Below, piece by piece: positions 11,760 to 37,227 of a stretch of 38,839 nucleotides of DNA (its first letter is position 1; each line of letters starts with the position of its first letter). The stretch is from a virus, in IMG/VR virus record IMGVR_UViG_3300036399_001501, positions 1-38,839 of that record; one strand, 5' to 3'. Made by a program: the position numbers and the translations under genes. Below the pieces are notes generated by a model, which saw only the letters and a list, made by a program, of their open reading frames with translations, ran no database searches and was not told the origin of the DNA.

Positions 11760-12007
11760 TTCGCGCCCTCCTTGATTTTGTCGAGTTCGGCGCGGTATGC
11801 GTCGGAAGTCCCAACAGGGTCGCCGCTTTCCATTTCTTCAATCGCCCTCTCCGCAATGTCTTGCAGTTTGGCGTTTTGCTCCCGCGCCTCATCTCGCTCG
11901 CGCTTCAGTTCACGGGCATACTCAATGTCAACGCATGGCACTTGGTAGCCGTTGTCGTTGATCGCGTAGATGATTGGCTGGTCATCTGTCTTAAGCGTTC
12001 CGCTCAT
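11756..12007 (-). CDS. Hypothetical coiled-coil protein
   Basis: An 83-aa protein; residues about 30-60 form a charged helical stretch (RELKRERDEAREQNAKLQD) consistent with a coiled coil shared with the larger upstream gene product 12004-12528. ATG at 12007 has GGGAGGGCGGGAA just upstream. It ends KEGAK at an ATGA junction. Probably pairs with itself or its neighbour; no enzymatic motif. Confidence 0.6.
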   Translation of the reverse strand: MSGTLKTDDQPIIYAINDNGYQVPCVDIEYARELKRERDEAREQNAKLQDIAERAIEEMESGDPVGTSDAYRAELDKIKEGAK

Positions 12008-12528
12008 TTCCCGCCCTCCCTGCCGTAAATCGCGTTTTGGAGTCTGTGATATTCGCTGTTTATCAATATAAAACAACCGATTGGCAGTTGTTTGTTTATC
12101 GCAACCAATAGGCGACTCGCTGCGTCATGGACTTTTTGGTGGTCTTTGTAGGCTACCCATTCGCCAGCGGGAATTGCGGCTCGCGCCTCGTCTCGCTCGC
12201 GTTCTGCTTTTTCACGCATTTCTTGGTGGTAGTCCGAGTTCTGGCAGTAAAGCCGCGCCGTTTCCTCCCATTTGTCTCGTTCGCGCAAAGTGTTCATGTG
12301 CAATTCCCTCACCTCGTCGCGCTCGCGCCTTGCTTCCAGAACACGTTCGCCCTCCCTTAATGCTCGCTGGTGTTCTTCGTCCCAAGACGCAATGGCAACA
12401 CGCTCACGCTCCCGCGCCTCGTCGCGCTCGCGCTGCGCCTCGCGCAAAAGCTCCCATGCCGCCAGTTCGCACTGTAAATCATTCTCCCTCTCTGTGTTCT
12501 CTGTGTCCTCTGTGGTTAAATTCTTCAT
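12004..12528 (-). CDS. Coiled-coil protein whose N-terminus is repeat-encoded
   Basis: A 174-aa protein; after the N-terminal NLTTEDTENTERE, residues about 20-120 are almost continuous charged coiled coil (ERDEARERERVAIAS and similar heptads). The N-terminus comes from the dispersed ACCACAGAGGACACAGAG repeat at 12490-12519, fused in frame just after the start ATG at 12528. The stop of 12525-12770 overlaps the start (ATGA), which supports 12528 as the true start. The C-terminus GREGGK is again the Shine-Dalgarno junction. Function unknown; perhaps a structural bundle or scaffold for the neighbouring small proteins. Confidence 0.6.
   Translation of the reverse strand: MKNLTTEDTENTERENDLQCELAAWELLREAQRERDEARERERVAIASWDEEHQRALREGERVLEARRERDEVRELHMNTLRERDKWEETARLYCQNSDYHQEMREKAERERDEARAAIPAGEWVAYKDHQKVHDAASRLLVAINKQLPIGCFILINSEYHRLQNAIYGREGGK
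12490..12519 (-). repeat. Dispersed repeat copy A
   Basis: On the minus strand the copy reads as the TTAACCACAGAGG consensus followed by ACACAGAGAACACAGAG. Same orientation as the copies at 17454-17483, 32567-32598 and 36830-36860. Here it lies inside the first codons of 12004-12528. Confidence 0.85.
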
Positions 12529-17262: not shown

Positions 17263-17489
17263 TTCGCCTCCTTCGGTGGATTCGGCAACGGCATCCAATG
17301 CAAAACTGGGTCATAGTCGTAAATTCTTGCACCAGCTACATTTCGCCAGACATCGCCATCAATAAACCCTGTCCAAACTTCACCATCCTTCGTGTGGATG
17401 ATGACCGTCTCGCCGTCATCAGGAAGCGTCACTGAAGCATTCCGCCACTTCATCTCCGTGTCCTCTGTGTCCTCTGTGGTTAATTTCAT
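17259..17489 (-). CDS. DUF551-like small protein with repeat-encoded start
   Basis: A 76-aa protein; its body (WRNASVTLPDDGETVIIHT ... DPVLHWMPLPNPP) matches the DUF551 pattern of a Trp start, a LPDDGETV turn and a terminal HWMPLP. The first 12 residues are encoded by the dispersed repeat at 17454-17483, with the ATG just outside it. An internal ATG at 17453 is an alternative start after the repeat. The C-terminus KEAK encodes the Shine-Dalgarno of the exonuclease. Function of the family is unknown. Confidence 0.65.
   Translation of the reverse strand: MKLTTEDTEDTEMKWRNASVTLPDDGETVIIHTKDGEVWTGFIDGDVWRNVAGARIYDYDPVLHWMPLPNPPKEAK
17454..17483 (-). repeat. Dispersed repeat copy B
   Basis: Same family and orientation as copy A; here it encodes LTTEDTEDTE at the start of the DUF551-like protein. 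Both A and B place an ATG a few bases upstream of the repeat unit. Confidence 0.85.
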
Positions 17490-32530: not shown

Positions 32531-32598
32531 AGTTTTAAGTTTTAAGGATTAAGTTTTAAGAGGCGTCCTCTGTGGTCTCTGTGTCCTCTGTGGTCAAT
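32531..32598 (-). repeat. Composite repeat copy C (TTAAAACTTAA block + CACAGAGG block)
   Basis: Two joined elements: a TTAAAACTTAATCC-type block (32531-32560) and a CACAGAGG-type block (32567-32598). The second provides the stop TGA of 32594-34660; the first lies just before the collar-gene start. Same arrangement and orientation as copy D at 36795-36860. Confidence 0.9.
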
Positions 32599-34660
32599 TC
32601 AGCGTGCGGGTGGTTTGCGAATCCGCCCCGGAGCGTGTCGCTTCGGCGGTGAGGGCGCGCAGGAGCGGGCGGCCGGATGTGGTGCGGAAGCGCAGGTCGA
32701 GCGCGGTGGCTTTGCAGCGCAGCGGGGCTTTGATCGTGTAGTCCTCGCTCACTCCGCTGGTGTTGGTGAGGGCGGCGATCTGGAAATCGTTGTCGTAGTC
32801 GGTCGTCACCGCTTCGAGGGTGCAGGCCGCACCGGCATCCAGCACTACGCTGGCCTTGGATCGCAGGAGGCGCTTGGTGTCCAGGCTGCCAAAGCCATAG
32901 CGGCGCGAGAGCAGGAGGCCGTTCACGGTCGTAGTGCCCAGGCCGCTCAGTGTGTCGTCGGTGCCGGTCTCATGCTCATCGAGCAGGAAGAGCTTGCCGG
33001 TCGTGGTGGATGCGAAGAGGCGGCGTTCTGTGCCGTAGTCCGAGACAAGCAGGCGGTCTATGGCAAAGCCGTAGGTGTCGCGGCTTTCCCATTGTTGGTT
33101 GAGCATGTTGAAAGCAAAGAGGCTGTTCGGCTGTGTGCTGGTGCCCAGCGGGAGGGCGAGATAGTAGCGGTTGTTGAAATAAATCCCGTTGCTCAGGTAG
33201 GCCGCTTGCGCATTGATGCCGTCTACCAGGTCGGCGATGGGGTCCGAGAGCGTCTGCGTGGATCCGCGCAGCTTGAGGTCAAATTGATTGTCGAGGCGGT
33301 AAACGCCGTTGTCCGATAGGAAAAACACATACACGCCTGCGGTGGCAATGCTCCGGCGGGCGGAACAGCCGACTTCATTGGTGAGGAGTTGCAGGCTGCT
33401 ATTGGCGGCATCCATCGACACGCCATCCGTTCCAATGGCCGCTGTGGCAAGCCAGATGGATTTGCGGCAGAAGACGAGCACTTGCCCTTCGGCATACGGA
33501 TGCAAGGCCACGATGTAGTCGTTGGAGCCCGCATTGGCGCGGAAGCTCTTCAAAACGGGGTCGTAGGTCTCCGCGTCGAAGACATCGGACATAAGCACTT
33601 CGTCGCGGTTGCGGGCGATGATGAGTTGGTTATTGAGGTAGGTTGCCGTGCTTGTCGATGGCAGGCGCGAGTAGGTGACGCCGAGCGGATGCGATCCTTG
33701 GGCCACTCGCGCAAAGGTGTTGGTGAGCACGCCATCCCACACCAAAGCGGGCTGCACACGCTGGGCGATGATTTGCCCGGTGTCCGGCGTGACTGTGCCC
33801 GAGGGCACCGAAAAGGAAAATTGCGTCGAGCTGATGCGTGTCACTTGGAAGTCTGCCAGGTATCCCGCATTTACCGCTCCGCTTATGCGCACCACCTCGC
33901 CTGTCTGGTAGGGGTGCGTGCCGCTAGTAGTTGCCGTGGCCGTGCCGCTTGTCTGCGTGAGGCTGGAAAGGCGGATGAGCGATTCTGCCCGCGTGCGGAG
34001 CAGGTAGAGCTTGTCAAATGCTTGGATAATCTCGATGTCATCCTCGGCGACAAGGGTATCGGTGGTCGGGTAGGCGATGCTTTGCAGGCTCGCTCCATTC
34101 CTCCAGAGATAGGCGGTATTTGGACCGGCAAGGACGATGTATTCGTTTGAGTTGTCCAGGCGCGGCGAGGAGTAGATGCCAGCGCCTATTATGCCGCCTG
34201 TGTAAGAGGTTTGCACTACCGGCCCACGATTGGCTATGAGCGTGCCGCTGGCCGATGCGCCGGGATCCGCTGTCATGGTGTAGGTGAAAGTATTTGGCCC
34301 AGGGACGGTGATGTAGAAGTTCCCGTTGTATTGCGATTGAGCGGCACCGCGGATGTTCACATAGTCGCCGGTCGCGTAGCCGTGCGCGGTGAGAGTCGCT
34401 GTGGCCGTAGTGGTCACGCGAGTTATGGAGGTGATGGATTTATCCACCCCAAGCTGGAATGGCACCGTGAGCGCTTCGCCGATATTGCCGATGGCCTCTG
34501 CCAGCCGTTTTGCGCCCTTGCGCGTCTGGGCCACGCCACGGTCTAGGCGCATATTTTCGCAGTATTGCACCATGCCTGGTTGGAGTTGCAGCGGGTTGAG
34601 ACGCGACGCCATACCGAGAAATCCGGCATCTCCTTCAGTGATTGTGGCGTCGTCTGGCAT
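32594..34660 (-). CDS. Large tail/stabilisation-type structural protein
   Basis: 688 aa. The N-terminus (GFLGMASRLNPLQLQPGMVQ, then ENMRLDRGVAQTRKGAKR) fits a virion protein family in podoviruses that starts with this RLNP-LxPG-NMR-RKG pattern. The rest is beta-rich, with repeated T-x-T-x-T segments, like a beta-propeller or tail nozzle. Start ATG at 34660 follows AAAGGAGC and the TTGACAC box of 34669-34689. Role: tail assembly or DNA gating, inferred. The stop lies inside repeat C. Confidence 0.75.
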   Translation of the reverse strand: MPDDATITEGDAGFLGMASRLNPLQLQPGMVQYCENMRLDRGVAQTRKGAKRLAEAIGNIGEALTVPFQLGVDKSITSITRVTTTATATLTAHGYATGDYVNIRGAAQSQYNGNFYITVPGPNTFTYTMTADPGASASGTLIANRGPVVQTSYTGGIIGAGIYSSPRLDNSNEYIVLAGPNTAYLWRNGASLQSIAYPTTDTLVAEDDIEIIQAFDKLYLLRTRAESLIRLSSLTQTSGTATATTSGTHPYQTGEVVRISGAVNAGYLADFQVTRISSTQFSFSVPSGTVTPDTGQIIAQRVQPALVWDGVLTNTFARVAQGSHPLGVTYSRLPSTSTATYLNNQLIIARNRDEVLMSDVFDAETYDPVLKSFRANAGSNDYIVALHPYAEGQVLVFCRKSIWLATAAIGTDGVSMDAANSSLQLLTNEVGCSARRSIATAGVYVFFLSDNGVYRLDNQFDLKLRGSTQTLSDPIADLVDGINAQAAYLSNGIYFNNRYYLALPLGTSTQPNSLFAFNMLNQQWESRDTYGFAIDRLLVSDYGTERRLFASTTTGKLFLLDEHETGTDDTLSGLGTTTVNGLLLSRRYGFGSLDTKRLLRSKASVVLDAGAACTLEAVTTDYDNDFQIAALTNTSGVSEDYTIKAPLRCKATALDLRFRTTSGRPLLRALTAEATRSGADSQTTRTLN

Positions 34661-36794: not shown

Positions 36795-36860
36795 AGTTTT
36801 AAGTTTTAAGGATTAAGTTTTAAGTTCCGCCTCTGTGCTCTCTGTGTCCTCTGTGGTCAT
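36795..36860 (-). repeat. Composite repeat copy D
   Basis: TTAAAACTTAATCC-type block (36795-36824) plus CACAGAGG-type block (36830-36860). The second part gives the stop TGA of 36857-37021. Same order and strand as copy C. Confidence 0.9.
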
Positions 36861-37197: not shown

Positions 37198-37227
37198 AGT
37201 TTTAAGTTTTAAGAATTAAGTTTTAAG
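37198..37227 (-). repeat. Repeat copy E (TTAAAACTTAA block only)
   Basis: A single block near-identical to those in copies C and D (ATT in place of ATC in the middle), without the CACAGAGG partner. It spans the stop of 37223-37408 and lies before the holin candidate. Confidence 0.85.

Follow-up and report, generated by a model that had tools for sequence, protein, structure and literature searches.

The locus examined here raises the question of why a short repeat of 27-30 bases should recur at the edges of protein-coding genes in a phage genome, and what the source of such a sequence might be. The window, i.e., the whole 38.8-kb stretch of DNA analysed, is an IMG/VR virus record of a phage genome that encodes a SU10-type capsid protein, terminase, DnaB helicase, tail collar protein and VanY/M15 peptidase. 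A weak phage-integrase match (E=3e-5, under the curated cut-off) suggests, at the level of sequence only, a temperate phage. The host remains unresolved, as an AT-rich repeat described below has a single match among 289 Verrucomicrobiota genomes and relatives of the MCP, found in 10 of the 289, are distant (at most 32% identity). The window carries four copies of the repeat (A to D), all in the orientation of the genes (minus strand), as had originally been predicted; their common form, read on one strand, is (TT)AACCACAGAGG(A)CACAGAG..CACAGAG. The 16-mer CACAGAGGACACAGAG has four exact and two one-mismatch matches in the window and its reversed-pattern control has none, while CACAGAGG is matched 11 times against 1.06 expected (about tenfold), a count never reached in 100 shuffles.

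Copies A and B are solo arms that open genes. Copy A (TTTAACCACAGAGGACACAGAGAACACAGAG; 12490..12519, minus strand) is read as LTTEDTENTE after ATGAAGAAT and forms the N-terminus of gene A (12004..12528, minus strand; 174 aa), an ORF opened by ATGAAGAATTTAACCACAGAG.. whose ATG overlaps the TGA of the upstream gene (ATGA) and whose product has no match among Pfam and NCBIfam profiles. No in-frame ATG directly follows the repeat, and initiation at the overlapping ATG would therefore include the peptide in the product. Copy B (ATTAACCACAGAGGACACAGAGGACACGGAG; 17454..17483, minus strand) is read as LTTEDTEDTE after ATGAAA and is the N-terminus of gene B (17268..17489, minus strand), a small ORF opened by ATGAAATTAACCACAGAG.. 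that runs from 17489 down to at least 17268 (74 codons read, with the stop outside that stretch) and encodes a small unnamed protein. Here an in-frame ATG right behind the repeat provides a second possible start, and homologues of gene B that lack the repeat begin near residue 13. Copies C (TTGACCACAGAGGACACAGAGACCACAGAGG; 32567..32596, minus strand) and D (ATGACCACAGAGGACACAGAGAGCACAGAGG; 36830..36859, minus strand) start on the TGA of the upstream gene, the stop of ORF 32594-34660 being supplied within CTGAATTGACCACAGAG and that of the gene upstream of copy D within AAATGACCACAGAG. The translation of A and B as N-terminal TTEDT(E/N)TE peptides after an ATG and the donation of TGA stops by C and D were both part of the original prediction and hold on in-frame reading of the sequence. 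Unnoticed at that stage was that every copy is in addition positioned at the beginning, or within the leader, of the next gene: copy C is located about 40 nt ahead of the tail collar gene (PF07484; 31877..32524, minus strand), and copy D about 40 nt ahead of a Peptidase M15/VanY-like gene (PF13539, PF02557; 36338..36790, minus strand) that, judged by its profile matches, encodes a probable endolysin. RNA structure, proposed as a check, is absent from the window's phage copies beyond the level of shuffles (fold z about 0 or above).

Copies C and D are each joined to a second, AT-rich repeat, CTTAAAACTTAATCCTTAAAACTTAAAAC, located with approximate ends at 32535..32566 between copy C and the collar gene and at 36799..36829 between copy D and the VanY/M15 gene (both minus strand), and a version of it stands alone at 37202-37227 (minus strand), directly before a gene start. 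The pattern of this second dispersed repeat is CTTAAAACTTAA(T/A)(T/C)CTTAAAACTTAAAAC; it occurs directly ahead of minus-strand gene starts, twice joined to a CACAGAGG arm (pattern at 32535-32560 and 36799-36824) and once alone, and CTTAAAACTTAA has six exact matches in the window with none expected.

In bacteria, the exact 21-mer is present in at least 119 contigs from many phyla, including Planctomycetes, Verrucomicrobia, Acidobacteria, Chloroflexi, Bacteroidetes, Proteobacteria, Cyanobacteria, Chlamydiae and Gemmatimonadetes as well as others, with about 20-170 copies in some genomes (maximum counted 166) and no match to the reversed control in all but one genome. The earlier statement of a broad, intergenic presence in environmental bacteria was therefore correct, and the repeat does occur in PVC genomes, but the suggested focus on that group was too narrow, as Acidobacteria, Chloroflexi, Bacteroidetes and other phyla carry it too. 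Two large plasmids of Gemmatirosa kalamazoonensis (NZ_CP007129 and NZ_CP007130) have 24 and 19 repeat places, respectively. A convergent partner is found within 250 bp of 42 of the 115 bacterial copies, and such inverted pairs are palindromes in which, by alignment, the arms match and the loops are unrelated; their RNA fold z scores range from -4.9 to -11.1. The solo palindrome has the layout TTAACCACAGAGGACACAGAG, a loop of about 30-170 nt, and CTCTGTGTCCTCTGTGGTTAA, with neither an internal palindrome nor GTAG in the arm consensus TTAACCACAGAGGACACAGAG. At two loci (L553, L555), another palindrome, of the CACAAAAGG and GCGAAG flavours, is nested in the loop of CACAGAGG palindromes. As far as these comparisons of sequence go, the phage repeat corresponds to a single arm of a palindrome dispersed in bacterial genomes, a relationship that the first reading of the window had missed.

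A first lead to a candidate agent of dispersal was a GxxExxY gene positioned 94-124 bp from the repeat in two bacterial loci. Family searches revealed a layout, likewise missed in the first reading, with a plus arm shortly 5′ of the GxxExxY gene and an inverted arm shortly after its stop, and inverted arms above the score threshold flank 35 of 44 GxxExxY genes versus 6 of 144 other ORFs in the same loci. When assessed by position, inverted arms are found at 36/48 GxxExxY, 6/18 Y1_Tnp and 20/28 TIGR02436 genes, and the arm sequence differs among the three families: nine-base C-C--AG type arms on both sides occur at 27/48, 0/18 and 1/28 (the last being the four-helix family), and CACAGAG arms on both sides at 11/48, 0/18 and 0/28, respectively. 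About half of the 48 GxxExxY genes (L479-L508) come from genomes picked for carrying the repeat, and the remainder (L509-L538) from a phylum sample not picked for it. Other GxxExxY genes have arms of the flavours CACGAAGG, CGCAAAGAA, CACGGAGG and CACAGATTA, and the left and right arm of one gene agree in flavour, whichever flavour it is. In one contig (G019), a pair of elements shares 95.5% identity over 465 bp, a stretch that reaches exactly from one arm to the other, and lies in unrelated flanks. No target-site duplication is obvious at these two elements and no clean one was found in the analysis as a whole, in which clean empty sites were few; transposition itself was not observed.

Association is also apparent among genomes. 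GxxExxY is present in 40/41 Verrucomicrobiota genomes with the 16-mer versus 124/248 without it (289 genomes, p=5e-10), and in 11/15 versus 32/84 Planctomycetota (99 genomes, p=0.02), figures that are uncorrected for phylogeny or genome size; many of the GxxExxY genes in the 124 Verrucomicrobiota genomes lacking the 16-mer have arms of other flavours. In Planctomycetota, a GxxExxY match is present within 150 bp at 6 of 64 16-mer sites, where 0.03 are expected. Two of the six are remnants, degraded or partial genes (G380:C73, G344:C48), in keeping with an origin of solo palindromes by decay. Frameshifts or stops interrupt many GxxExxY genes (G013:C293:9165-9502, G008:C83, G380:C73), as would be anticipated for a mobile or selfish gene. 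A close-relative search with one query found no GxxExxY gene in viral contigs.

The role of the GxxExxY family (TIGR04256/PF13366) is unknown, and its name derives from the motif only. The protein scores 144 bits against the TIGR04256 profile (curated cut-off 35) and matches PF13366 (PDDEXK_3) with E=1e-42. Its alignment contains the invariant residues H18, E27, K79 and Q91 and the nearly invariant D67, E77 and Y95, with E77 and K79 arranged as E77-x-K79. The pattern H...D...E-x-K...Q...Y is the signature of an active PD-(D/E)XK nuclease of the RecB/Cas4 class. GxxExxY can thus be described from its conserved residues as a small PD-(D/E)XK nuclease-like protein, activity on the arms being inferred. 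A structure model built from two sequences is poor (pLDDT 59), a Foldseek fold search with that model gave no significant match, and no relative was found in the PDB by sequence.

The explanation proposed, considered reasonably likely, is that the phage repeat is an arm of the bacterial palindrome, that the GxxExxY element is the autonomous form of which the palindrome is the miniature, and that phages keep captured solo arms. The arms together with one GxxExxY gene would constitute an autonomous element of about 450 bp, and the solo palindrome its non-autonomous counterpart. The nuclease would act on the arm or hairpin, and copies would spread and insert at intergenic sites; both the movement of the repeat by GxxExxY and the route of insertion are inferred. 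In phages, only single arms captured from bacterial DNA would persist, the direction from bacterium to phage likewise being an inference. A more far-reaching version remains tentative, with doubt slightly prevailing: GxxExxY genes and their matched tandem-repeat arms may form an undescribed class of miniature mobile element spanning bacterial phyla. Its RecB/Cas4-like PD-(D/E)XK nuclease (about 120 aa) would act in cis to mobilise the palindromic arms around its gene and in trans to mobilise solo palindromes, and phages would repeatedly have turned single arms into in-frame starts, tails and stops of their genes.

The strongest alternative, although unlikely, is that the repeat is spread by another system, be it HUH/Y1 transposases (the case of REPs), replication slippage or retro-processes, and that GxxExxY is a passenger using the palindrome, e.g., as a protected intergenic niche. 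Most bacterial 16-mer copies do not adjoin GxxExxY, and several genomes carry copies without any GxxExxY match (G002, with 162 copies, as well as G313, G360, G361, G370 and G422), though these drafts may be incomplete. The inverted arms at 20/28 TIGR02436 genes also mean that bracketing is not unique to the nuclease, so that the GxxExxY protein could be a passenger, and since the inverted tandem repeats around these four-helix-bundle genes differ in sequence, some independence of the arms from the gene is possible. Y1_Tnp genes moreover occur in a large share of Verrucomicrobiota (214/289 genomes), but the armed ones carry REP-type hairpins and none of the 18 examined has CACAGAG arms, and Y1/RAYT transposases were on that ground rejected as the mobiliser. 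The shared flavour of the left and right arm of one GxxExxY gene instead fits a unit acting in cis, and the arm-to-arm duplication of one such unit likewise counts against a passenger.

TIGR02436 genes located outside rRNA have features of their own. Their inverted tandem repeats consist of units of about 7 bases, e.g., AGCTTAATGCTTAAAGCTTAAAG (20/28 tested), and the arms of the bracketed examples (L614, L622, L623, L628, L632, L634, L636) resemble the phage AT-rich repeat. This suggests that TIGR02436 genes and their arms are a second, parallel element family.

Among phages, the proposed element would thus be represented by its arms alone, and 109 of 113 phage copies are indeed solo. The viral set comprises 141 distinct copies with 56 downstream families and 64 distinct junction types. 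Dozens of phage lineages share the repeat, which had escaped the first reading. When copies are counted as coding if a start codon lies within 24 nt in the TTEDTE frame with at least 40 open codons, 75 of the 141, in 25 independent downstream families, are in frame behind a start codon; the other two frames account for 7 families and 0 families, and only 5/115 bacterial copies are in frame behind a start codon. In many of the phage cases the start codon is part of an ATGA overlap and is followed immediately by the repeat. Coding exaptation in a phage had been thought unusual, whereas the reading frames indicate that such use is real, common and not special to this window. The 9-base unit consists of three sense codons (Thr-Glu-Asp), so any number of units keeps the frame, and the outer end of the arm (TTAACC, AATGACC) supplies TAA or TGA. 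A single arm without its partner is also unstructured, and phage arms may be retained at the borders of genes because they do no harm, or are of use, in that position. The arm is read as C-terminal tails (SVHSVSSVV, SVSSVVN) in a GxxExxY protein and in phage Cys-rich proteins (L524, L027, L069). One pair of loci (L124/L050), considered as a sense in-frame 36-nt insertion, has both strands open and a more gene-like Cys-rich ORF on the opposite strand, which would make the repeat a C-terminal tail, and the pair was therefore excluded as N-terminal evidence.

Relatives at the same sites show how variable these gene edges are. In relatives of gene B, the number of units at this position is 2, 3, 4, 6 or 8, with lengths that are without exception multiples of nine bases, and two unrelated upstream flanks occur. 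Gene C relatives exist with and without the repeat, and in some of the empty alleles TAA leads straight into CTTAAAACTCC followed by ATG, while in others TTAACC is positioned right before the ATG. At site D, a bare ATGA overlap is seen in many relatives, whereas in others the repeat connects the same upstream gene to a different one; in another phage (L023, aligned with L118), a different simple repeat, TTTTTCCGCCTTCCGCCTTCCCATTTCCGCCTTCC, occupies the intergenic spot of the copy D relatives. Such arrangements could indicate that the phage repeat is mainly a recombination boundary, its short shared homology at gene edges enabling gene swaps. At sites B and D, identical upstream flanks lead via the repeat into differing downstream genes and vice versa, in keeping with this, as is the number of distinct junction types (64 for 141 copies). 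Compared with 1824 ordinary boundaries in the same contigs, however, discordant flanks are only slightly more frequent (0.32 versus 0.25 downstream, 0.235 versus 0.232 upstream); support for a gene-swapping role is weak, and recombination as the main explanation appears improbable.

Comparably doubtful is the possibility that selection maintains the repeat as a leader or ribosome-binding module, in which GAGG/AGAGGA gives a Shine-Dalgarno-like site and the N-terminal peptide is incidental. Copies do lie within a few tens of nt of gene starts, solo arms are unstructured, GAGG at site B is about 9 nt before the in-frame ATG, and an in-frame ATG follows within 8 codons of the repeat in 27/75 coding copies. 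Frame would not matter to a leader, yet the TTEDTE frame is used in 25 families versus 0 and 7, the other 48/75 coding copies lack a later ATG close by, and the arm at C and D is set apart from the ATG by some 40 nt of AT-rich repeat. A ribosome-binding role is nevertheless not excluded.

Although metagenome assembly can break at short repeats, an assembly or binning artefact or chance is scarcely credible, given that the window junctions recur in other metagenomes, unit number varies at homologous sites with conserved flanks, and control patterns are absent. Exact 35-mers across the junctions are found in contigs of other metagenomes at 6 other viral loci for A (5′ junction), 7 loci for C, 1 for D and 1 for the 3′ side of B. 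These recurrences, together with IMG/VR relatives that share the junctions and have 2-8 unit or repeat-free alleles, make local chimerism, which would have refuted the original prediction, unlikely by sequence comparison.

The preferred reading, in which phages captured arms of the proposed GxxExxY element from bacterial DNA, would offer a candidate agent for a repeat of many environmental bacteria whose origin is unnamed in the literature searched. It would also give a possible role to a protein family known by its motif alone. It would also explain the odd N-terminal (TTEDTENTE) and C-terminal (SVSSVV) tails of predicted proteins and imply that host repeat DNA serves phages as ready-made gene edges. 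No description of the repeat sequence in bacteria, of GxxExxY elements or of flanking arms was found in the literature searched; subscription papers lay outside that search, and the claim of novelty is limited accordingly. Members of the family (TIGR04256, PF13366 PDDEXK_3) are carried by bacterial elements.

Several known systems resemble the proposed element in part. The 23S rRNA intervening sequence (IVS) of Coxiella is a selfish element of 428 nt whose ends pair in a 28-bp stem and whose loop encodes a single S23 (four-helix-bundle) protein (PMC4990558). The likeness lies in the small size, the inverted repeats at the ends and the single short ORF between them, but the IVS protein is TIGR02436, its site is 23S rRNA and its arm sequence is different, whereas the repeats studied here are at protein-gene edges and 0/28 TIGR02436 genes have CACAGAG arms. 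As in MITEs, short palindromes, here proposed to be non-autonomous, share their ends with a larger coding element, in this case GxxExxY, but a target-site duplication has not been shown for GxxExxY elements and there is no DDE transposase. The REPIN/RAYT system consists of short dispersed repeats, mostly extragenic, that form hairpin pairs and lie beside a single-gene nuclease/transposase, with several repeat flavours, each of them tied to a gene of its own (PMC3116915, PMC8266576). The bacterial repeat is likewise dispersed and arranged in inverted doublets (42/115 convergent; z -4.9 to -11.1), while the phage copies are not (109/113 solo). The bacterial arms differ in being 9-base tandem units without a hairpin inside one arm, and the TTAACCACAGAGGACACAGAG arm lacks the GTAG-type tag and internal imperfect palindrome of REPs. 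The repeat does not flank a Y1/HUH transposase (0/18 Y1_Tnp with CACAGAG arms), the enzyme is the PD-(D/E)XK nuclease-like GxxExxY rather than HUH/Y1, and GxxExxY is present in many copies per genome, unlike RAYTs, which are described as single copy. By analogy, the anatomy is that of an autonomous unit (arms and nuclease) and a miniature (arms only), as in REPIN/RAYT but with another enzyme class and with mobilisation inferred, and the prediction that follows is a nuclease-driven counterpart of REPIN/RAYT in which enzyme and substrate flavours are matched.
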